From Nocardioides marinus (GTDB taxonomy: Bacteria > Actinomycetota > Actinomycetes > Propionibacteriales > Nocardioidaceae), in the NCBI RefSeq assembly GCF_013408145.1, contig NZ_JACBZI010000001.1, positions 3,858,001 to 3,922,000 on the forward strand: DNA of 64,000 nucleotides, given 5' to 3'. The notes beneath the pieces were generated by a model. That model ran no database searches. It was given only the letters and a program-made list of their open reading frames with translations, and was not told the origin of the DNA. How positions within the stretch are numbered: position 1 is the first letter of the stretch; every line of letters begins with the position of its first letter. The position numbers and the translations under genes were made by a program. Below, piece after piece: positions 44,891-54,365 of this stretch.

Positions 44891-46447
44891 GTGAGCACCC
44901 AGATGCGCGACCTCGTCGACGAGCTGCGCCAGCGCCTCGCGACGGTGCGACAGGGCGGCAGCGAGGCCGCGAGGACCAAGCACACCGACCGCGGGAAGCT
45001 GCTGGTGCGCGACCGGGTCGACCGGTTGCTCGACCCGGGCAGCCCGTTCCTGGAGCTGAGCCCGCTGGCGGCGTACGGGATGTACGGCGCGCCGGGGGAG
45101 ACCCCCGTCCCGAGCGCCGGGGTGGTCGGCGGCATCGGTCGCATCCACGGCCGCGAGTGCGTCGTCGTGGCCAACGACGCCACGGTCAAGGGCGGCACCT
45201 ACTACCCGATGACGGTCAAGAAGCACCTGCGCGCGCAGACGATCGCGGCCGAGAACAACCTGCCGTGCATCTACCTCGTCGACTCCGGCGGCGCGTTCCT
45301 GCCGATGCAGGACGAGGTCTTCCCCGACCGTGAGCACTTCGGCCGGATCTTCTTCAACCAGGCGAACATGTCGGCCCGCGGCATCCCGCAGATCGCCTCG
45401 GTGATGGGCTCGTGCACCGCCGGCGGCGCCTACGTCCCGGCGATGAGCGACGAGACGGTCATCGTCAAGGAGCAGGGCACGATCTTCCTCGGCGGCCCGC
45501 CGCTGGTGAAGGCCGCGACCGGCGAGGTCGTCACCGCCGAGGAGCTCGGCGGCGGCGAGGTGCACGCACGCCGCTCGGGCGTGGTCGACCACCTCGCCGA
45601 CGACGACGCCCATGCGCTGGCGATCGTGCGCGGCATCGTCGACACGTTCAGCAGGCCGGTCTCGACGGGCTCGACCAACGGTGGCGCTCCGTGGGAGGTT
45701 CGCGAGCCCGAGGAGCCGCTGGAGTCGCCGGAGTCGATCTACGACGTCGTCCCCGCCGACGTGCGCACGCCCTACGACGTCCGCGACGTGATCCGCCGCA
45801 TCGTCGACGGCTCCCGGATGCAGGAGTTCAAGGCGCTGTACGGCGAGACGCTGGTCTGCGGGTTCGCGCACGTGTGGGGCCACCCGGTCGGGATCGTCGC
45901 CAACAACGGCATCCTGTTCAGCGAGTCCGCCCTCAAGGGCGCGCACTTCATCGAGCTGTGCAACCAGCGCGGCATCCCGCTGGTCTTCCTGCAGAACATC
46001 TCCGGCTTCATGGTCGGCCGGGAGTACGAGAACAACGGCATCGCCCGCGACGGCGCCAAGCTGGTCACCGCGGTCGCCTGCTCGGTGGTCCCCAAGTTCA
46101 CCGTCGTGATCGGCGGCTCGTACGGCGCCGGCAACTACGGCATGTGCGGGCGCGCCTACGACCCGCGGTTCTTGTGGATGTGGCCCAACGCCCGGATCTC
46201 GGTGATGGGCGGTGAGCAGGCCGCCTCGGTGCTCGCCACCGTCGCCGGGCGTCCCGACGACGAGGAGTTCAAGGAGCCGATCCGCGCGCAGTACGAGGAG
46301 CAGGGCTCGCCCTACTACGCCTCGGCGCGGCTGTGGGACGACGGGATCATCGACCCCGCCGACACCCGCCGGGTCCTCGGCATGGCGCTCTCGGCCGCGG
46401 CCAACGCGCCGGTGGCCGACCCCTCCTACGGCATTTTCCGCATGTAG
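44891..46447 (+). CDS. Methylcrotonyl-CoA carboxylase carboxyltransferase (beta) subunit
   Basis: The 518-residue protein has both halves of the carboxyltransferase: [20 protein letters not shown] and [18 protein letters not shown] in the first, then [24 protein letters not shown] and [26 protein letters not shown] in the second. Sequence and neighbours (biotin carboxylase, HMG-CoA lyase) point to methylcrotonyl-CoA carboxylase of leucine degradation rather than propionyl-CoA carboxylase. The leaderless GTG start is under a TetR-type operator. Odd: residues about 254-265 ([12 protein letters not shown]) are encoded by a REP-like sequence in the linker between halves. Confidence 0.92.
45655..45684. 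repeat. REP-like unit inside a coding sequence
   Basis: The 30 bases contain GGTCTCGACGGGC-TCGACCAACGGTGG, the inverted form of the GGTGGTCGAG..GAGACC units at 21396-21530. It is in frame within the carboxyltransferase gene and encodes a Ser/Thr/Gly-rich stretch between the two conserved halves. Confidence 0.6.
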
Positions 46448-46482
46448 GTGGTCCAGGTGCGAGCGAAGCGAGCCACGAGACC
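46447..46482. repeat. Degenerate REP-like unit between beta and alpha carboxylase genes
   Basis: GGTGGTCCAGGTGCGAGCG..CCACGAGACC has the same ends as the REP-like units at 21.4 kb. It fills most of the 59-bp gap between the two subunit genes and has GCGAGCG/CGAAGCGAGC hairpin potential. Confidence 0.5.
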
Positions 46483-46506
46483 CAGCGACCCACACGAAGG
46501 CCCCCG

Positions 46507-48354
46507 ATGAACACCCTCCTCATCGCCAACCGCGGCGAGATCGCCCGCCGCGTGATCCGCACCGCCCGCCGCCTGGGCTGGCGCACGGTCGCGATCCACT
46601 CCGACATCGACGCCGAGGCGCTGCACGTGCGGGAGGCCGACGACGCCGTGCGGGTGGAGTCCTACCTCGACGTCGACGAAGTCGTGGCTGCCGCCCGCGA
46701 GGCCGGCGCCGGCTTCGTCCACCCCGGTTACGGCTTCCTCTCCGAGCGGGCCCCCTTCGCCCGGGCGCTGGCCGAGGCCGGCATCACCCTGGTCGGCCCC
46801 AGCGCCGAGGTCATGGACGCGATGGGCCGCAAGGACGCCGCCCGCGAGGTCGCGGTCGCCGCCGGCGTGCCGGTCGTGCCGTCCTACGACCTCGACGACG
46901 ACCCCGCGACCTTCGCCTACCCCGTGCTGGTCAAGGCCGCGGCCGGCGGCGGCGGCAAGGGCATGCGTGTCGTGCGCAGCGCCGCCGACTACGCCGAGGG
47001 CTTCGCCGCCGCCCAGCGCGAGGCGCGCTCGGCGTTCGGCGACGACACCATCCTGGTGGAGAAGTACGTCGAGTCCGGCCGCCACATCGAGGTGCAGGTC
47101 ATGGGGGACACCCACGGCCACGTCGTGCACCTCTTCGAGCGCGACTGCTCGACCCAGCGCCGGCACCAGAAGGTCCTGGAGGAGGCGCCGGCCCCGGCGA
47201 TCACCGACGAGCAGCGCGCGGCGATCACCGGCTCGGCCGTGGCGCTGGCCGCGCAGTGCGGCTACACCGGCGCGGGCACCGTGGAGTTCCTGCTGGACAA
47301 CGCGACCGGGGAGTTCTACTTCCTGGAGATGAACACCCGCCTCCAGGTCGAGCACCCCGTCACCGAGGAGGTCGTGCGGGTCCGCGGCGAGCGGGTCGAC
47401 CTCGTCGAGCTGCAGCTGCGGGTCGCGACCGGTGAGCCGCTGGGCATCGACCAGGCCGACGTCACGCTCGAGGGCCACGCCATCGAGGCGCGGGTCTACG
47501 CCGAGGACTCCTTCGGCGGGTTCCTCCCGCAGGCCGGGCGCGCCGGGGAGGTGCGCTGGCCGACCGGCGACCGGGTCCGCGTGGACCACTCGCTGGTCTC
47601 CGGCCAGGAGGTCTCGACGTCGTACGACCCGATGCTGGGCAAGGTTATCGCCGGCGGCACCGATCGCGAGGACGCTCGGCGCCGTCTGGTCGCCGCCCTC
47701 GACGAGACCGTCGTGCTCGGGCTGACGACCAACACCGGGTTCCTGCGCGCGCTCGCCGACCACGCCGCCTTCCGCGACGTGGGGCACGAGGGGGGTCTCG
47801 ACACCGCCTGGCTCGACCGCGTCGACGTCGCGGCCGAGGTCCCCGCTCCCAGCCCCGAGGAGGCGCGGCACCTCGCCGCCTGGGCCGTCCACCTCGCCGA
47901 GTCCGAGCCCACCGGTCCCTTCGCCTCCGACGGCTTCCGCCTGGGCGCGCCCCCCGCGCCGGTCGTGGTGCCCCTCGACGAGGACGTCGTCCTCGGCCGC
48001 CGCCCCCGCCTCGACCCCGCCGCCCACGTCACCCCGGCCACGGTCGAGGTCGTGCTGCGCGGGCAGCGCTTCCGCTTCGAGCGCGGCGACCTGGCCGCCG
48101 ACCACGCCGACGAGCACACCGGCGACCTGGTCGCCCCCATGCCCGGCACCGTCCTCGACGTCCGCGTCGGGGCCGGCACGAGCGTGGAGGAGGGGCAGGT
48201 GCTCGGCGTGCTGGAGGCGATGAAGATGGAGCTCGCGCTCAAGGCGCCGTACGCCGGCACCGTGACCGTCGTCGACGCGACCGTGGGACGCCAGGTGCCC
48301 CTGGGGCACGTGCTGTTCCACGTGGAACCACAGGGTCAGGAGGGCCAGGAGTGA
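46507..48354 (+). CDS. Methylcrotonyl-CoA carboxylase alpha subunit (biotin carboxylase plus BCCP)
   Basis: The 615-residue protein has biotin carboxylase domains (IANRGEIARRVIRTARRLG, VKAAAGGGGKGMRVV, FLEMNTRLQVEHPVTEEV) to about residue 445. A linker follows, then a biotinyl domain with EAMKM and biotin-accepting Lys at about 573. It carboxylates biotin with ATP and bicarbonate for transfer by the beta subunit. ATG at 46507 starts the canonical sequence; the two subunit genes are 59 bp apart with a REP-like unit between them. Confidence 0.94.
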   Translation: MNTLLIANRGEIARRVIRTARRLGWRTVAIHSDIDAEALHVREADDAVRVESYLDVDEVVAAAREAGAGFVHPGYGFLSERAPFARALAEAGITLVGPSAEVMDAMGRKDAAREVAVAAGVPVVPSYDLDDDPATFAYPVLVKAAAGGGGKGMRVVRSAADYAEGFAAAQREARSAFGDDTILVEKYVESGRHIEVQVMGDTHGHVVHLFERDCSTQRRHQKVLEEAPAPAITDEQRAAITGSAVALAAQCGYTGAGTVEFLLDNATGEFYFLEMNTRLQVEHPVTEEVVRVRGERVDLVELQLRVATGEPLGIDQADVTLEGHAIEARVYAEDSFGGFLPQAGRAGEVRWPTGDRVRVDHSLVSGQEVSTSYDPMLGKVIAGGTDREDARRRLVAALDETVVLGLTTNTGFLRALADHAAFRDVGHEGGLDTAWLDRVDVAAEVPAPSPEEARHLAAWAVHLAESEPTGPFASDGFRLGAPPAPVVVPLDEDVVLGRRPRLDPAAHVTPATVEVVLRGQRFRFERGDLAADHADEHTGDLVAPMPGTVLDVRVGAGTSVEEGQVLGVLEAMKMELALKAPYAGTVTVVDATVGRQVPLGHVLFHVEPQGQEGQE

Positions 48355-48372
48355 CCGGATCGCTGTCGGGGA

Positions 48373-48431
48373 CCGCGGGGACGTCATACGGACGGGACGT
48401 CCCCCACCGCTGCGCGTATGACGTCCCGCGG
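48373..48431. repeat. GACGTC-armed inverted repeat, copy 3
   Basis: The left arm CCGCGGGGACGTCATACG (48373-48390) and right arm CGTATGACGTCCCGCGG (48415-48431) are the longest arms of this family, about 17 bp with one extra base on the left. It lies between the alpha-carboxylase and HMG-CoA lyase genes, both plus strand, so here it interrupts an otherwise compact operon. Confidence 0.88.
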
Positions 48432-48442
48432 TGGGTCGAGGC

Positions 48443-49387
48443 ATGACCGGCGTCATCACCCGCGCCACCCCGGTGCCCTCGCCGGGGCTGCCCGGACGGG
48501 TGCGGATCTACGAGGTCGGCCCGCGCGACGGCCTGCAGAACGAGCAGGGCGTGATCCCGGTGGAGGTCAAGGAGGAGTTCGTGCGGCGGCTGCTCGCCGC
48601 CGGGCTGCCCGTCGTCGAGGCCACTTCCTTCGTCCACCCCCGCTGGGTCCCGCAGCTGGCCGACGCCGCCGAGCTGATGGGCCGTCTGGGCGACGACGGC
48701 CGCGACTGTCCTGTGCTGGTCCCCAACGAGCGCGGCCTCGACCGGGCGCTCGAGCTCGGCCTGCGCCATGTCGCCGTCTTCGCCAGCGCGACCGAGACCT
48801 TCGCGGCCAAGAACCTCAACCGCACGCTGGAGACCCAGCTCGAGATGTTCGCCCCGACCGTCGAGCGTGCGCTCGCCGCGGGGATGGACGTCCGCGCCTA
48901 CGTCTCGATGTGCTTCGGCGACCCGTGGGAGGGTCCGGTCGCGCCCGAGCAGGTCGTCGAGGTGGGGCAGCGGCTGCTGGCGATGGGTGCCACCGAGCTC
49001 AGCCTCGGCGACACCATCGGCGTGGGCACCGCGGGCCACGTCACGGCGCTGGTGGAGGCGTTCACCGCCGCGGGCACCGACGTCGACCGGCTCGCGCTGC
49101 ACTTCCACGACACCTACGGCCAGGCCCTCTCCAACGTCCAGGCCGGGCTGCGCGCCGGCGTGACGACGTACGACGCCAGCGCCGGCGGCCTCGGCGGGTG
49201 CCCGTACGCGCAGAGCGCCACCGGCAACCTCGCGACCGAGGACCTCGTGTGGCTGCTCGACGGCCTGGGCATCGACCACGGGGTCGACCTCGAGGCCCTC
49301 GTGGCGACCAGCGCCTGGATGGCGCAGCAGCTCGGGCGCCCCAGCCCCTCCGCCGTCGTGCGCGCGCTGGCACAATCCACCTCGTGA
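48443..49387 (+). CDS. Hydroxymethylglutaryl-CoA lyase
   Basis: The 314-residue TIM-barrel enzyme has GPRDGLQNE at the N-terminus, FHDTYGQALSNVQAGL (metal-binding His), and the signature GGLGGCPYAQSATGNLATED with the catalytic Cys. It cleaves HMG-CoA to acetoacetate and acetyl-CoA, the last leucine-degradation step. ATG at 48443 is selected over 48431; GGTGGG lies upstream. Its last codons overlap the start of the sulfotransferase gene (GTGA), which has its own CACAAT hexamer inside this gene. Confidence 0.94.
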   Translation: MTGVITRATPVPSPGLPGRVRIYEVGPRDGLQNEQGVIPVEVKEEFVRRLLAAGLPVVEATSFVHPRWVPQLADAAELMGRLGDDGRDCPVLVPNERGLDRALELGLRHVAVFASATETFAAKNLNRTLETQLEMFAPTVERALAAGMDVRAYVSMCFGDPWEGPVAPEQVVEVGQRLLAMGATELSLGDTIGVGTAGHVTALVEAFTAAGTDVDRLALHFHDTYGQALSNVQAGLRAGVTTYDASAGGLGGCPYAQSATGNLATEDLVWLLDGLGIDHGVDLEALVATSAWMAQQLGRPSPSAVVRALAQSTS

Positions 49388-50481
49388 CATCCCAGCGTCG
49401 GGTCTACCTGCACATCGGTGCGCCGAAGACCGGCACCACCTACGTGCAGGACCGACTCAGCCGCAACGCCAAGACCCTGGCCCAGCACGGCGTCCACTTC
49501 CCCTCGCGCGCGCCGCTGGTGAGCCCGGGGATGTTCCACTTCCGCGCCGCGCTGGACCTGCTCGGCCAGGACTGGGGCGGCGAGCAGGGACACGCCGAGG
49601 GCAGCTGGGACGCGCTCGTGCGCCGGGTGCGCCGCTCCCGCGGCACCGTGATCGTCAGCCACGAGATCCTCGCCCCCGCGCCCGCCCAGGCCGTCGCGCG
49701 GGCCAAGGCCGAGCTCGGCGCCGGCGACGACCTGCACGTCGTCTACGGCGTGCGCGACCTCGCCCGGCAGCTGCCCGCCGCCTGGCAGGAGAGCATCAAG
49801 CAGGGTCGCAAGTGGACCTACCGCAACTTCCTGCGCAAGACCCGCAGCGGAAAGCCGTGGTTCTACCGCGCCTTCGACGTGCCCGCGGTGCTCAGCACCT
49901 GGTCGGCCGGCCTGCCCCCGGAGAACGTCCACGTCGTCACCGTCCCGCAGTCCGGCACCGCCGGCCCCCACGAGCTGTGGCACCGCTTCTGCCGTGCCGT
50001 CGACATCGACCCGGCCTGGGCGCCGGAGGAGTCGCGGCGCACCAACCCCTCGCTCGGGGTGGCCGAGGCGGCGCTGATCCGCCGCCTCAACAAGCGCCTG
50101 GGGCGCCGGGTCCGCCGGGACGCCACGTACGACGACCTCGTGCGGGGGCTGCTGGCCGAGCAGGAGCTCGCGGGCCGGGAGAGCGCGAAGCTGCTGCTGC
50201 CGCCGGGCATGCACGACTGGGCCGAGGCGGAGTCCGCGCGCTGGGTGGAGTGGATCGAGCAGAGCGGCGTCGACGTCATCGGCGACCTCGAGGACCTCCG
50301 CCCGCTGCCCACCCGCCGCCGGGACTACGTCAACCCCGACAAGGTCACCTCCAAGGCCCAGCTGGCCGCCGCGCTCGACGCGCTCACGGTCATGACGCAG
50401 GAGGCGGCCCGCCGCGACGACCCCGAGCAGCAGCTCGCGCAGCGGCTGCGCACCGGCGTACGCCGCCTGCGGGAGTCGTGA
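49384..50481 (+). CDS. Sulfotransferase family protein, first of trio
   Basis: The 365-residue P-loop sulfotransferase has HIGAPKTGTTYVQDRL near the N-terminus, the 5'-phosphosulfate loop (PKTGTT at 14-19). It also has a 3'-phosphate-binding VRDLARQLPAAWQ around residue 124. It should transfer sulfate from PAPS to an acceptor, probably a surface glycan or lipid. Shared with the third gene is the stretch NPSLGVAEAALIRRLNK. GTG overlaps the HMG-CoA lyase stop, with CACAAT 7 nt upstream, and overlaps the next gene by GTGA. Confidence 0.87.
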   Translation: MTSQRRVYLHIGAPKTGTTYVQDRLSRNAKTLAQHGVHFPSRAPLVSPGMFHFRAALDLLGQDWGGEQGHAEGSWDALVRRVRRSRGTVIVSHEILAPAPAQAVARAKAELGAGDDLHVVYGVRDLARQLPAAWQESIKQGRKWTYRNFLRKTRSGKPWFYRAFDVPAVLSTWSAGLPPENVHVVTVPQSGTAGPHELWHRFCRAVDIDPAWAPEESRRTNPSLGVAEAALIRRLNKRLGRRVRRDATYDDLVRGLLAEQELAGRESAKLLLPPGMHDWAEAESARWVEWIEQSGVDVIGDLEDLRPLPTRRRDYVNPDKVTSKAQLAAALDALTVMTQEAARRDDPEQQLAQRLRTGVRRLRES

Positions 50482-51683
50482 CCGTCGAGGGGCCGGCCCG
50501 AGCGGCCGCCTGGGTGACGCACCTGCGGGAGGGTGGCACCACCCCGTGGGCCGCGTGGACCGGCACCGTGGACGGCCCGGCCTCACCGCTCCTGCCCGGA
50601 GCCCAGCAGCTGGAGCTGCTGCGCCGGGTCAACCAGCGCGGGCCCGTCCCGCCGGCCCTCGTCGAGCGCGTGCTGAGCGCCAGCGCCGCCGGCCGTGGCC
50701 GACCCGACCTCGAGCTCGTGGGAGCCCGGCCGGCCTCGGAGTTCGGGCCGCCCCCGGTGGACCCGGCCGCCCTGCCGGCCGAGGAGCTGCTGCGCGTGGT
50801 GGCCCTGCTGCTGGCCGAGGACCTCGCCGCCGAGGGCTGCGTCGACCAGGAGCCCGACGACCTGGGGCGGCTGGTCGGTGACGCCGCGCGGCGGATGCGC
50901 CGCAGCGGCCGGGGGCCGTGGCTGCGGCCGTGGCGCACGAAGTACCGCCTGGTGGGCGACCCCTGGCGCGCCGACGCGCTGCGCCGGGACCTGACCGAGC
51001 GCGGCCGCCCGCCCGGTGGGCGCGGCGCCCTGGTGCTCGTCGTGGCCGACGACCTGGCCACGATGCTGGCCGACCTCTGGACCGACCGGTGCTTCTCCAC
51101 CGGGGTCGCGGTCCCGGCGTGGGGTCCGTGGCTGGACTCGCTGGCCGGCGCGCGGCGCATCGCCCGGGGCGCGGACCCCGCGCTGGTGGCCGCCACCTGG
51201 GCCGAGCGGGTCGGGCGCGAGCGGGTGCGCGTGGTGCTCGACGACGGGCAGCTGCCCGCCCTCCTGGGCGTCCCCGCCCTCACCCCTCGTCCGCCCGTCC
51301 CGGCCGAGGCCGCCGAGCTGGCCCGTCTGGTCGCGAAGGCGCTCGGGCTGCGCGTCACCCCCGACGCGGGCCGGCGCATCATGCGCGAGCGGCTGCTGCC
51401 GCGCCTGCTGGACCACCCGGGGGCCCCGTTGGCGGTGCCGCCCGAGCACCACCGGTGGATCCACCGCCGATCGGTCCGGATCCGGGACGCCGTGCGCGCA
51501 GGTGACTACCCTGTCCTGGGCGAGGTGGACGGCCTGGTGAGCCGCCCGCGCGCCCTGGCCGCCTCCGGGGAGACCCTCTCCGGCGAGGCGGCGGACGAGC
51601 GGGTGCTGGCCCTGGCCGTGGACCTGCTCCTCGCACCGGACGGTGCGCAGGACCGCACCGGACCGCAGGAGGCAGGCACGTGA
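50478..51683 (+). CDS. Degenerate sulfotransferase paralogue (pseudo-sulfotransferase) with novel N-terminal domain
   Basis: The 401-residue protein has about 150 N-terminal residues of no recognised family. From residue 156 it parallels the two flanking sulfotransferases: YRLVGDPWRADALRRDL aligns with YLHIGAPKTGTTYVQDRL, ADDLATMLADLW with VRDLARQLPAAW, AEAAELARLVAKALGLRV with AEAALIRRLNKRLGRRV, and YPVLGEVDGL with a VDVIGDLEDL block. The P-loop Lys/Thr and the Arg of the RDL motif are lost and about 80 residues are missing, so PAPS binding is unlikely. Both ends overlap the neighbours by GTGA, implying co-translation. A regulatory or scaffold role is inferred. Confidence 0.7.
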   Translation: MTVEGPARAAAWVTHLREGGTTPWAAWTGTVDGPASPLLPGAQQLELLRRVNQRGPVPPALVERVLSASAAGRGRPDLELVGARPASEFGPPPVDPAALPAEELLRVVALLLAEDLAAEGCVDQEPDDLGRLVGDAARRMRRSGRGPWLRPWRTKYRLVGDPWRADALRRDLTERGRPPGGRGALVLVVADDLATMLADLWTDRCFSTGVAVPAWGPWLDSLAGARRIARGADPALVAATWAERVGRERVRVVLDDGQLPALLGVPALTPRPPVPAEAAELARLVAKALGLRVTPDAGRRIMRERLLPRLLDHPGAPLAVPPEHHRWIHRRSVRIRDAVRAGDYPVLGEVDGLVSRPRALAASGETLSGEAADERVLALAVDLLLAPDGAQDRTGPQEAGT

Positions 51684-52894
51684 GCGCCCGGGTCCTGCTG
51701 CACGTCGGCACCCCCAAGACCGGCACGTCCCACCTCCAGGACGTGCTCTTCCGCAACCGCGACCGGCTGCGCCAGCACGACCTGCTCTACCCGGCCGACC
51801 GCTTCGACGCGCACTTCCTGGCCGCGCTGGACCTCATGGCGCTGCCCTGGGGCGGCCTGCAGGCCGAGGCGATCGGGCGCTGGGACGCGCTCGCCGAGCA
51901 GGTACGCCGCCACGACGGCACCGCGATCATCAGCCACGAGATCCTGGCCACCGCCTCGCGCAGCCAGGTCGGGCGGGCGATGCAGTCGCTGGCCCCCGAC
52001 GACGGGACCGAGGTGCACCTGGTGCTCTCGGTGCGCGACCTGGTGCGTCAGATCCCCGCGGAGTGGCAGGAGAACGTCAAGCACCGCAGCACCATCACCT
52101 ACGAGGAGTTCCTCGCCCAGCTGCGCGACCCCGAGCGCAAGGGCCGCATCGCCACGTGGTTCTGGGGAGTCCAGGAGATCCCCGACATCCTCGACCGGTG
52201 GGGCCACGACATCCCGCCCGAGCGCATCCACCTGGTCACCGTGCCGCCGCCCGGTGGGGCCCCGGACCTGCTGTGGAAGCGGTTCAGCAGCGTCCTCGGT
52301 CTCGACGGGATCGACCTCGAACTCGAGGCCGAGCGTGCCAACCCCTCCCTCGGCGTCCCCGAGACCGCGCTCGTGCGCCGCATCAACAAGGCGGTCAACC
52401 CGGTCCTCGACCCGCCCGACTACCGACCGCTGGTCCGCGAGCTGCTGGCCCACCAGACGCTGTCTCGACGCACCCGCACCCCCCGGCTGGCGCTCCCGCC
52501 CGACCTGCACGAGTGGGCCCGCGACCTGGGGGAGCGGTGGAGCGCGGAGGTGCGCCGCCGCGGGTACGACGTCGTCGGGGACCTCGCCGACCTCGAGCCC
52601 GGTCCGCCGCCGGAGCACTGGGCCGACCCCGACTCACCCCGCGAGTCGCAGGTCTCCGGTGCGGCCGTCGAGGCGATCCGCGCGCTGCTGGTCGAGAACG
52701 CCCGGATGCGCGCCGAGGAGGAGCGCCTGCGCCGTGAGCTGCACGAGGCCCGGGTCGCCCTGGACCGCAGCTTCCTTCGCCCGTCGTACCAGCTGCGCGA
52801 GAAGGCGCTGCGCGGGCTCCGCCGCACGGCGGTGGGCCGCGGGCTGCACCGGGTCTACCGCGTGGCGCGCGGCAGGAGCTCGCGGTCGGCGTAG
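51680..52894 (+). CDS. Sulfotransferase family protein, third of trio
   Basis: The 404-residue sulfotransferase has LLHVGTPKTGTSHLQDVLF (P-loop PKTGTS, 12-17), VRDLVRQIPAEWQENVK and NPSLGVPETALVRRINK. It is clearly homologous to the first gene of the trio. It has an extra C-terminal coiled-coil (about 340-375, VENARMRAEEERLRRELHEA) and a basic tail that may associate with membrane. Sulfate acceptor unknown. GTG start overlaps the preceding stop (GTGA). Its 3' end overlaps the convergent EcsC gene by 40 bp. Confidence 0.87.
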   Translation: MSARVLLHVGTPKTGTSHLQDVLFRNRDRLRQHDLLYPADRFDAHFLAALDLMALPWGGLQAEAIGRWDALAEQVRRHDGTAIISHEILATASRSQVGRAMQSLAPDDGTEVHLVLSVRDLVRQIPAEWQENVKHRSTITYEEFLAQLRDPERKGRIATWFWGVQEIPDILDRWGHDIPPERIHLVTVPPPGGAPDLLWKRFSSVLGLDGIDLELEAERANPSLGVPETALVRRINKAVNPVLDPPDYRPLVRELLAHQTLSRRTRTPRLALPPDLHEWARDLGERWSAEVRRRGYDVVGDLADLEPGPPPEHWADPDSPRESQVSGAAVEAIRALLVENARMRAEEERLRRELHEARVALDRSFLRPSYQLREKALRGLRRTAVGRGLHRVYRVARGRSSRSA

Positions 52895-53547
52895 CGGCCG
52901 ATGCGCCAGGTGGCGTACCCGTCGGCTCCCATGCCCACGACGCCGCCCACGACCGGCACCCGTCGCCCGACGACGACGGCGAGTCGCTTGCCGGTCATCC
53001 GCGCGATGATGTCCGAGCCGACCTCGGTGGCCAGCCGCCGGTCCAGCGCCGGGTCGGCCACGGGTGCGGTGGCCAGCGCCATCGGGGGCGCGGGCAGGGT
53101 GCCGCGGTCCAGCAGCGCGTCGACCTGGTCGGCGCCGAGCAGGCAGGCCAGCACGGCGTTGCGCACCCGCGGGTCGTCGAGGTCGTAGCCGCGCAGGTGG
53201 GCGATCCCGGCGATCATCCGGCACTGCACGAGCGCCAGCCCGGTGATGTTGGCGGGGATCGCCACCGCGGCGGTCACCACGCCGCCGAGGTTGGTGAGGA
53301 ACCCCTGCGCCCCGGCGTACCGGACGTGGTTCTCGATGACCTCGTGCACGGCCCGGTCGACGTCGCCGTCCTGCTCGCGCAGCTGGGCCTCCGCGGCCGC
53401 CGCGGCGCCCGGCAGCGGCCCGACGCCGCGGATCGCCCGCTCCAGCGCCTCGCGGACGAAGGTCTCGGTCACCCCGGGGGCCGCACCGGCGACCTTCGGG
53501 GCGAGTCGGCGGCCGACCATCGTGGCCACGCTGCGGCTTCTGCTCAC
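52855..53547 (-). CDS. EcsC family protein
   Basis: The 230-residue protein has the EcsC pattern: long amphipathic helix, then GFLTNLGGVVTAAVAIPANITGLALVQCRMIAGIA and GYDLDDPRVRNAVLACLLG. EcsC proteins are membrane-associated and of uncertain function. GTG at 53547 is preferred since GGAGGAG lies 5-7 nt upstream. Its stop lies inside the last codons of the third sulfotransferase gene (convergent overlap of 40 bp). Confidence 0.85.
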   Translation of the reverse strand: MSRSRSVATMVGRRLAPKVAGAAPGVTETFVREALERAIRGVGPLPGAAAAAEAQLREQDGDVDRAVHEVIENHVRYAGAQGFLTNLGGVVTAAVAIPANITGLALVQCRMIAGIAHLRGYDLDDPRVRNAVLACLLGADQVDALLDRGTLPAPPMALATAPVADPALDRRLATEVGSDIIARMTGKRLAVVVGRRVPVVGGVVGMGADGYATWRIGRYADRELLPRATR

Positions 53548-53684
53548 GGGTGCTCCTCCACGGGGGTGCTGACGAGTCGTTCGAGGGCCTCCGGCCTGCG
53601 GGGCCCTCGCTCCTGATCGTACGGAGGACCGCACCACCTACCGGGGTCTGCCGGGTGGGACACCCGGCGCGTAGCGTGCCGCCA

Positions 53685-54365
53685 ATGCCCATCGAGCCAC
53701 CGCCCACGGCATGGTCCTTCGGGGATCCCCGTGGCTACGACGAGCTCGACGACCTGGTCGGTGTCGGGGCCGACCTGCGGCCGGGCACCCTGCTGGCGGC
53801 CTACCGGCGCGGGTTGTTCCCGATGCCCTCGGGCCACCGCGGTGACCCGGCGTACTGGTTCTGCCCGGTCCACCGCGGCGTGCTGCCCCTGGACGGCCTG
53901 CACGTCTCCCGGTCGCTGCGCCGCTCGCTGCGCGAGTTCGAGATCCGCGTCGACACCGCGTTCGAGGCGGTCGTGGCCGCCTGCGCCGACCCGCGCCGGC
54001 CGCAGGGCTGGATCGACGACGAGGTGCGGGCCGCCTACACCGAGCTGCACCGGCTGGGCTGGGCGCACTCGGTCGAGGCCTGGCAGGGCGACCGCCTGGT
54101 CGGGGGCCTGTACGGCGTGGCGATCGGTGGCCTCTTCGCGGGCGAGTCGATGTTCCACCGGGCGACCGACGCCTCCAAGGTGTGCCTCGTGGCGCTGGTG
54201 GAGATGCTGCGCGACGAGCACGCCGCCAAGCGGGTGCTGGACGTGCAGTGGCGCACCGACCACCTGGCCACGCTCGGTGTGGTCGAGATCGACCGGGCGA
54301 CGTACCTCGCGCGGCTGCGCGTCGCCACCGGGCTGCCGCTGCCCGCGGCCTTCGCCGGCTGCTGA
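53685..54365 (+). CDS. aat: Leucyl/phenylalanyl-tRNA-protein transferase
   Basis: The 226-residue protein has the Aat signatures LLAAYRRGLFPMP, CPVHRGVLPLDGLHVSRSLRR, GWAHSVEAWQGDRLVGGLYG, GGLFAGESMFHRATDASKV and LDVQWRTDHLATLG. It adds Leu/Phe from tRNA to N-terminal Lys/Arg of proteins, marking them for ClpS/ClpAP-type degradation (N-degron pathway). ATG is 7 nt after TAGCGT (53672-53677), a leaderless start. Confidence 0.96.
   Translation: MPIEPPPTAWSFGDPRGYDELDDLVGVGADLRPGTLLAAYRRGLFPMPSGHRGDPAYWFCPVHRGVLPLDGLHVSRSLRRSLREFEIRVDTAFEAVVAACADPRRPQGWIDDEVRAAYTELHRLGWAHSVEAWQGDRLVGGLYGVAIGGLFAGESMFHRATDASKVCLVALVEMLRDEHAAKRVLDVQWRTDHLATLGVVEIDRATYLARLRVATGLPLPAAFAGC

Follow-up and report, generated by a model that had tools for sequence, protein, structure and literature searches.

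The middle one of three overlapping genes in a 64,000-nucleotide stretch of the Nocardioides marinus genome (the window) encodes a protein, MID, that on sequence evidence is an enzyme homologue whose catalytic motifs have been lost and that is maintained by selection. MID lies between two sulfotransferase-like proteins, ST1 and ST3 (Table 1). We read it as a pseudo-sulfotransferase that has lost its PAPS site as well as its catalytic motif and carries a new domain, and that most likely acts as a non-catalytic subunit of ST3; our confidence in this reading is about evenly balanced. The retention of a dead sulfotransferase-like gene by a soil-dwelling Nocardioides group, in several genera and beside one intact sulfotransferase-like gene or, more often, flanked by two, suggests a non-catalytic helper subunit for the sulfation of a cell product.

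Table 1. Positions of the trio, its domains, its joints and the upstream neighbour in the window
Feature	Position	Strand	Description	Basis
ST1	49384..50481	+	Sulfotransferase-like, 365 aa; P-loop PKTGTT, SHE and VRDL all intact	Translation, motif counts, comparison with ST3
MID	50478..51683	+	Putative pseudo-sulfotransferase, 401 aa, without P-loop, SHE and RD	Translation, profile-profile comparison, motif counts, model
MID N-terminal domain	50478..50927	+	About residues 1-150; no relatives detected	
MID sulfotransferase-like domain	50943..51650	+	Residues 156-391; reduced fold, three main strands	hhalign, model, structural comparison
ST3	51680..52894	+	Sulfotransferase-like, 404 aa, motifs intact; long helical C-terminal tail starting at residue 322	Translation, model, motif counts
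ST1/MID joint	50478..50481	+	GTGA stop-start overlap, 4 bases	
MID/ST3 joint	51680..51683	+	GTGA stop-start overlap, 4 bases	
HMG-CoA-lyase-like neighbour (HMGL, PF00682)	48431..49387	+	Upstream context, outside the trio	

The flanking proteins ST1 and ST3

The earlier note on this DNA had given the coordinates of the trio with GTGA overlaps at its joints, and had claimed that the first and third proteins keep PKTGT and VRDL; both were confirmed, the latter by sequence and by motif counts in homologues. ST1 and ST3 were 42 % identical (147/348). In PAPS-dependent sulfotransferases a P-loop of the PK[TS]GT type binds the 5'-phosphosulfate, an RD-type arginine motif binds the 3'-phosphate and SHE is the catalytic motif. 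The P-loop (PK[TS][GA][TS]) and SHE were each present in 71/71 ST1 and 77/77 ST3 homologues, and the arginine motif (RD[LIV]..Q) was present in 63/71 and 77/77, respectively. Eight positions past the arginine motif, where Ser is the usual residue in PAPS-dependent sulfotransferases, the ST1/ST3 test found Ala (A127, invariant).

Judged from its model (pLDDT 92.0), ST3 has a sulfotransferase fold, and the best 26 rows of the structural comparison were all sulfotransferases (top Z 14.4). None of ST1, MID and ST3 of the window reached a family cut-off in Pfam or NCBIfam; the only sub-threshold family match of ST3 was to DUF6665 (E 0.028), and Sulfotransfer_3 was weakly matched in 2/49 aligned members in the ST1/ST3 profile test (best E 0.015). 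Three short matches of the ST profile to PDB sequences, the best of them (E 6.5e-4) covering 39 residues of a Gp14 protein, were taken as chance. A gene for APS kinase, which serves PAPS supply, was found in the genome and likewise in 11/14 control genomes.

Ancestry and motif loss of MID

BLASTP similarity was confined to the C-terminal part of MID, with E-values of 6e-4 against ST1 and 0.006 against ST3. Profile-profile comparison by hhalign aligned MID residues 156-391 with ST3 residues 81-339 (98.6 %, E 1.2e-15; with larger alignments, 98.0 %, E 2.3e-13), in agreement with the proposal of the earlier note that sulfotransferase homology begins at residue 156, and the profiles indicate that this part of MID shares descent with sulfotransferases. 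The P-loop, SHE and RD motifs were each found in 0/78 Nocardioides homologues of MID, and the P-loop in 0/16 MIDs from other genera. Loss of the P-loop and of the PAPS-binding Arg had been claimed before; loss of SHE goes beyond that claim.

Sulfotransferases headed the structural list for residues 154-356 of the confident MID model (pLDDT 90.8), although weakly, with a Z of 6.9 where the tool advises 8; the top match was the Alicyclobacillus sulfotransferase 3rnl (rmsd 3.9, 151 aligned). This fold check had been named beforehand, and its outcome did not go against a sulfotransferase origin, but it gave only that Z. Foldseek with the MID model returned no match at E ≤ 0.001, a search of PDB sequences with the MID profile found nothing, and Pfam searched with 74 MIDs matched seven families, each in at most two members. 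Evidence was divided on the suggestion that YRLVGDPW of MID represents the P-loop strand. The structural alignment favours it, as 13 of the first 14 rows begin at residue 154, near the start of the partner fold, which we take to be the strand preceding the P-loop, whereas hhalign paired YRLVGDPW with AIISHEIL of ST3 at both alignment sizes; scored alone by hhalign, either placing of this strand gave meaningless scores.

MID, ST1 and ST3 each formed one clade in a tree in which the branching order of MID was unsettled, branches were long and the bootstrap had not converged. With three separate clades, a recent origin of MID by copying of ST1 or ST3 was ruled out. Values of dN/dS for MID (0.14-0.32 in six pairs) indicate purifying selection, which, with the presence of MID in 125/147 genomes, ruled out a decaying pseudogene. 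The term 'degenerate paralogue', used for MID in the earlier note, therefore holds for the loss of catalytic and cofactor residues but not for the history of the gene, which appears to be a separate old lineage under purifying selection and no decaying copy.

Compared by hhalign, residues 1-150 of MID did not resemble the ST profile (1.4 %), as expected if MID carries the extra N-terminal domain of about 150 residues that had been described, and approximately the first 150 residues appear to form a new domain with no relatives detected. Within the genus, residues 1-120 were the best conserved part of the protein (median identity 60 %, compared with 43 % in the sulfotransferase-like part). Residues 1-106 contained 20 of the 33 strongly conserved positions, including the polar residues E46, R49, R73 and R106, and Q44 was also invariant among 74 aligned Nocardioides sequences. 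Such conservation, in a domain whose lack of detected relatives leaves room for a new activity, favours a reading in which MID has a function of its own as a new enzyme or binding protein. The work would fall to the N-terminal domain, the sulfotransferase-like part being only a structural remnant, and MID would belong to the pathway of ST1 and ST3 but would not join them in a complex; it might, for instance, act on their acceptor either ahead of sulfation or following it. We regard this reading as fairly unlikely. Against our own reading, the N-terminal 150 codons had the higher dN/dS in 4/6 close pairs, which does not fit a strictly constrained domain, although this slice includes a variable linker.

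Linkage of MID with ST3

MID was present in at least six genera of the Nocardioidaceae, though not in all; in the genus designated g19, no match was found in 12/12 listed genomes. When 394 genomes from the class were searched with the profile and five candidates were scored in each, full-length MID was found only in the family of the window, and outside it the matches covered sulfotransferase-like parts only.

ST3 followed MID in 40/40 chosen loci, in 79/80 loci of a second set (in the one exception the contig breaks off within MID) and in 16/16 chosen loci of other genera, so that the neighbourhood check put forward in advance found MID together with a sulfotransferase. A sulfotransferase lay upstream of MID in 32/40, 75/80 and 13/16 of these loci, the first two sets overlapping in species. 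ST1 was missing from 8/40, 5/80 and 3/16 loci (16/136, including one, L160, in which the contig starts inside MID) and was of a different type in 6/66 complete sets. The constant neighbour of MID is ST3, while ST1 has often been lost or belongs to another type; a MID locked between two sulfotransferases, as pictured in the earlier note, is the usual layout, but only its ST3 side is constant.

Partial correlations of distance matrices, calculated over 57 sets with four neighbours controlled, were 0.683 for MID and ST3, 0.316 for ST1 and MID, and 0.265 for ST1 and ST3, and MID-ST3 was the top co-varying pair in 500/500 subsamples. The higher MID-ST3 value obtained with HMGL as the single control (0.849) was rejected as proof, since neighbours in this locus co-vary too: under that control AAT gave 0.68 with MID and 0.71 with ST3. 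The four-control values were used instead. Co-variation with ST3 was greater for the sulfotransferase-like part of MID (0.663) than for residues 1-120 (0.387), which fits an interface in the former and counts against MID being an independent enzyme or binding protein.

The frequent presence of an upstream sulfotransferase, and an overlap of exactly -4 at 46/74 homologous ST1/MID joints, would suit a single three-part assembly of MID, ST1 and ST3, of the kind put forward in the earlier note, in which MID regulates or feeds both enzymes. We consider this quite unlikely, given the loci in which ST1 is absent or of another type and the low co-variation of ST1 with MID, which rose to 0.471 once the six other-type ST1s were left out.

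Presence was called in 147 Nocardioides genomes at E ≤ 1e-100 for ST3 and E ≤ 2e-11 for MID: 125 had both, 18 had neither, four had ST3 alone and none had MID alone. The four ST3-only genomes, which lack a recognisable MID, retained ST1 as well as ST3, and ST3 is therefore not always dependent on MID. In three of the four, the slot of MID held a GT2 glycosyltransferase gene, as if steps of a pathway had been swapped, which again is in keeping with MID as an enzyme in its own right; these genes run on the opposite strand, however, so that a swap of function is conjectural.

The block BC-HMGL-trio-EcsC-AAT kept one arrangement across genera. No tie to sulfation was evident for the BC, HMGL, EcsC and AAT neighbours. 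As unrelated neighbours hold an identical order, conserved order is weak evidence alone, and the shared arrangement means that adjacency counts as one inherited event and that co-loss may be one deletion. MID could on these grounds be a bystander of unrelated role, placed beside ST3 merely by the inherited order of a stable chromosome block, but we hold this to be very unlikely. No genome had MID without ST3, even if one deletion could take both genes; MID-ST3 co-variation was the highest after four controls; and the MID/ST3 overlap was more exact than that of HMGL and ST1, which in the window is likewise a GTGA overlap (49384-49387), being exactly -4 in 68/79 homologous joints compared with 25/66. 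At the ST1/MID joints, too, an exact -4 was less frequent (46/74).

Proposed role of MID and comparison with known systems

If MID is a non-catalytic subunit of ST3, translational coupling would keep its output in step with that of ST3. MID would dock on ST3 via its sulfotransferase-like domain, and the conserved N-terminal domain may hold or select the acceptor or position the complex, while ST3, plus ST1 where present, would use PAPS to sulfate a product, probably a glycan of the cell surface. Glycan sulfation as the process is probable from the proximity of the modelled ST3 fold to the sulfotransferases of heparan sulfate (Z 14.4 for the N- and 13.2 for the 3-O-sulfotransferases) and from the GT2 gene in the MID slot. 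The proposal in full, namely that the dead domain docks on ST3, the new domain presents the acceptor and the heteromer sulfates a surface product of Nocardioidaceae, making MID the first bacterial pseudo-sulfotransferase subunit, is tentative and, taken as a whole, rather doubtful. The locus suggests that Nocardioidaceae make a sulfated product which has gone unrecognised, and it contributes a new protein domain. Since it is kept in several genera and the pairing of MID with ST3 is constant, the question lends itself to direct testing.

The heparan sulfate enzymes, NDST1 (an N-sulfotransferase) and the 3-O-sulfotransferases, were the nearest solved structures to the ST3 model, at an identity of 12-14 %. 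The best structural match of MID, 3rnl, was also the best Foldseek match of ST3 (E 3e-4); it is a sulfotransferase by title, whereas MID is without the cofactor-site motifs. No bacterial pseudo-sulfotransferase was named in the open-licence papers that the literature searches brought up, judged from titles and abstract openings. The atypical human cytosolic protein SULT4A1 resembles MID in being a sulfotransferase-fold protein, yet its PAPS-binding motifs are retained, as are its active-site His and dimerisation motif (PMC11275347). MID, unlike SULT4A1, has lost the P-loop, SHE and RD, and combines a reduced fold and an added N-terminal domain with a place in an operon with intact paralogues. 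Sulfate-dependent activity in cells has reportedly been claimed for SULT4A1 in one other paper (PMC8803991).

Control of an active enzyme by a dead paralogue is known from other enzyme classes; for bacterial sulfotransferases, no such case was listed by the searches of open-licence papers. In trypanosomatid deoxyhypusine synthase, a dead paralogue joins an active one in a heterotetramer and activity rises 3000-fold (PMC3663545). That pair concerns a different, eukaryotic enzyme and is proven by assay, whereas a complex of MID or an activation by it would be hypothetical; with its dead paralogue beside an active one, it nevertheless offers a model for how MID may act on ST3 (PMC3663545).

A pseudo-sulfotransferase beside two sulfotransferase genes

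The earlier note described two intact sulfotransferase-like genes (ST1 and ST3) flanking a degenerate paralogue (MID). The observation was confirmed and widened to several genera: MID is an old, selected pseudo-sulfotransferase with ST3 as its constant neighbour. Re-reading of the sequence reproduced the three frames, their GTGA joints and their motifs, and the upstream HMG-CoA-lyase-like gene (HMGL) was found to overlap ST1 in the same way. The joint was exactly -4 in 68 of 79 loci for MID/ST3, 46 of 74 for ST1/MID and 25 of 66 for HMGL/ST1, counts that are approximate because start codons were picked by rule.

In Pfam and NCBIfam all three proteins of the trio stayed below the family thresholds, and the name sulfotransferase is therefore based on motifs and structure. 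ST1 and ST3 shared 42% identity. The P-loop, SHE and RD motifs were each kept in all 77 ST3 proteins, and in 71, 71 and 63, respectively, of 71 ST1 proteins. In structural comparison the top 26 rows for the ST3 model (pLDDT 92.0) were all sulfotransferases, the nearest being heparan sulfate N-sulfotransferase, at Z 14.4, and the 3-O-sulfotransferases, at Z 13.2.

Profile-profile comparison of 28 MIDs with 31 sulfotransferase-like proteins matched MID residues 156-391 (98.6%, E 1.2e-15), as did comparison with larger alignments (98.0%, E 2.3e-13), and common descent with sulfotransferases is well supported by the sequence profiles. The P-loop, SHE and RD motifs were each found in none of 78 MIDs, and the P-loop in 0 of 16 from other genera; together with the profile homology, this upholds the claim of a paralogue that has lost its PAPS-site residues. 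Structural support for the predicted fold was weak. Rows 1-12 for the MID model (pLDDT 90.8, pTM 0.89) were titled sulfotransferases (Z 6.9 to 4.0), but the best Z was only 6.9 and Foldseek returned nothing at E <= 0.001. Rows 13-14 were retinol dehydratase, which we take to have the sulfotransferase fold, at Z 3.8, equal to an unrelated dehydrogenase in row 15.

The segment YRLVGDPW of MID had been assigned to the P-loop strand. Residue 154 was the start in 13 of the 14 top structural rows, near the beginning of the partner fold, which agrees with that register, but hhalign paired YRLVGDPW with AIISHEIL of ST3; tried singly, both placings scored nothing. In this fold a missing edge strand is more plausible than a missing central strand. 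We lean towards the P-loop register; under either, the cofactor motifs are missing from MID. Elsewhere in the same genome, L037 (Table) is possibly a second, independent pseudo-sulfotransferase.

Residues 1-150 of MID showed no similarity to the sulfotransferase profile, and no Pfam match to them was common to more than two of 74 members. Median identity within the genus was about 60% for residues 1-120 versus about 43% for the sulfotransferase-like part (66 sets), and 20 of the 33 strongly conserved positions lay within residues 1-106 in 94 MIDs (the window, 77 Nocardioides and 16 other-genus sequences). Counting against strong conservation of this domain, dN/dS of the first 150 codons, a slice containing the variable linker 121-150, exceeded that of the rest in four of six close pairs.

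Distribution and gene neighbourhood

Among 147 Nocardioides genomes, 125 possessed MID (E <= 2e-11) and 129 ST3 (E <= 1e-100): 125 had both, four ST3 only, none MID only and 18 neither. Three more genomes had MID matches at about E 2e-4 only, one spanning just residues 271-380, and nine further genomes had only weaker ST3 matches (1e-72 to 1e-80), treated as paralogues. ST3 followed MID in 40/40 loci chosen across the identity range, in 79/80 named loci (the two sets share species) and in 16/16 loci from five other genera, drawn from 36 matching other-genus genomes and selected for a match covering both MID parts. The flanking by two sulfotransferases held downstream but less regularly upstream, where a sulfotransferase preceded MID in only 32/40, 75/80 and 13/16. 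Three loci (L072, L073 and L074) carried MID-ST3 pairs without ST1, their MID lacking the initial part of the N-terminal domain.

MID is not family-wide: matches of any kind, some in the sulfotransferase-like part only, occurred in 97 of 197 family genomes and 12 of 26 genera, and the profile had no match in the 12 genomes listed for one genus (g19). Full-length MID was confined to the window's own family among 394 genomes of the class (profile search, five candidates scored per genome).

The block from the biotin carboxylase gene, as we take it to be, to AAT, presumably leucyl/phenylalanyl-tRNA transferase, was kept in most examined loci of Nocardioides and the five other genera. Because the neighbours were equally kept in the other genera (biotin carboxylase 15, HMG-CoA lyase 14, EcsC-like 15 and AAT 15 of 16 loci), adjacency of the trio represents one ancestral arrangement, which counts against the reading of MID as a partner of ST3.

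Coordinates of the loci and features discussed
Feature	Position	Strand	Remarks
Biotin carboxylase, HMG-CoA lyase, trio, EcsC-like, AAT	window 46333-54365		EcsC-like gene on minus strand
GT2 glycosyltransferase between ST1 and ST3	L208:5595-6527	opposite	Nocardioides without MID
GT2 glycosyltransferase between ST1 and ST3	L211:5897-7069	opposite	Nocardioides without MID
GT2 glycosyltransferase between ST1 and ST3	L210:5037-5984	opposite	Nocardioides without MID
AurF-like oxygenase, also between ST1 and ST3	L210:3980-5017
ST1 with P-loop PKTGSAY	L209:6111-7238		ST3 directly next, MID absent between
MID and ST3 frames overrunning each other	L099:7965-11712		assembly errors or real frame changes
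MID and ST3 frames broken into pieces	L155:8001-10270		assembly errors or real frame changes
Five tandem sulfotransferase-like matches	L178 (G518:C3:11055-16758)	one strand	another family of the class
Three sulfotransferase paralogues inside 13 kb	L161 (C1:866000-885900)		own genome
Sulfotransferase-like protein, P-loop GLPHAGGGS	L037 (C1:3555120-3556157)		own genome; degenerate P-loop, RD motif absent

Evolution and proposed role of MID

In a tree of 80 sulfotransferase-like domains, MID (25), ST1 (26) and ST3 (25) each grouped as a single clade (100/100, 95/96 and 96/96 support, respectively; the bootstrap had not settled), and the three lineages predate the split of the sampled genera. With median identities of 46% for MID, 60% for ST1, 65% for ST3 and 81% for HMGL (66 sets), MID is the fastest evolving of the four; its dN/dS of 0.14-0.32 in six pairs indicates purifying selection.

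In the most likely mechanism, MID would be made in step with ST3 by translation and bind it as a non-catalytic subunit, its N-terminal domain supplying a specific function such as acceptor holding; the putative complex is likely. Distances controlled by four neighbours correlated at 0.683 for MID-ST3, 0.316 for ST1-MID and 0.265 for ST1-ST3 (57 complete sets), MID-ST3 being top in 500/500 subsamples. Against such a partnership weigh the correlations with HMGL as sole control (MID-AAT 0.68, ST3-AAT 0.71), and against MID as a subunit count four genomes with ST1 and ST3 but no recognisable MID. The slot held a GT2 gene in three of these and was empty in the fourth.

A glycan is the predicted substrate because of the structural neighbours of the ST3 model, the GT2 genes occupying the MID slot, and the related same-genome sulfotransferases that sit among GT2-like, LicD/methyltransferase and acyltransferase-3 genes. 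At L161 the neighbours were a gene with weak GT2 similarity, short of the family cut-off, LicD/methyltransferase, acyltransferase-3/SGNH and, presumably, nuclease/phosphatase-like genes; the region is a probable surface glycan cluster. Predicted PAPS supply is plausible because an APS kinase gene is present, though the gene also occurs in most control genomes.

Two systems offer precedents for MID. SULT4A1 is a sulfotransferase-fold protein whose crystallised form is reported not to have bound PAPS (PMC11275347), and activity is claimed for it in another paper (PMC8803991). The second is deoxyhypusine synthase of trypanosomatids, whose activity is reported to rise 3000-fold with a dead paralogue (PMC3663545).
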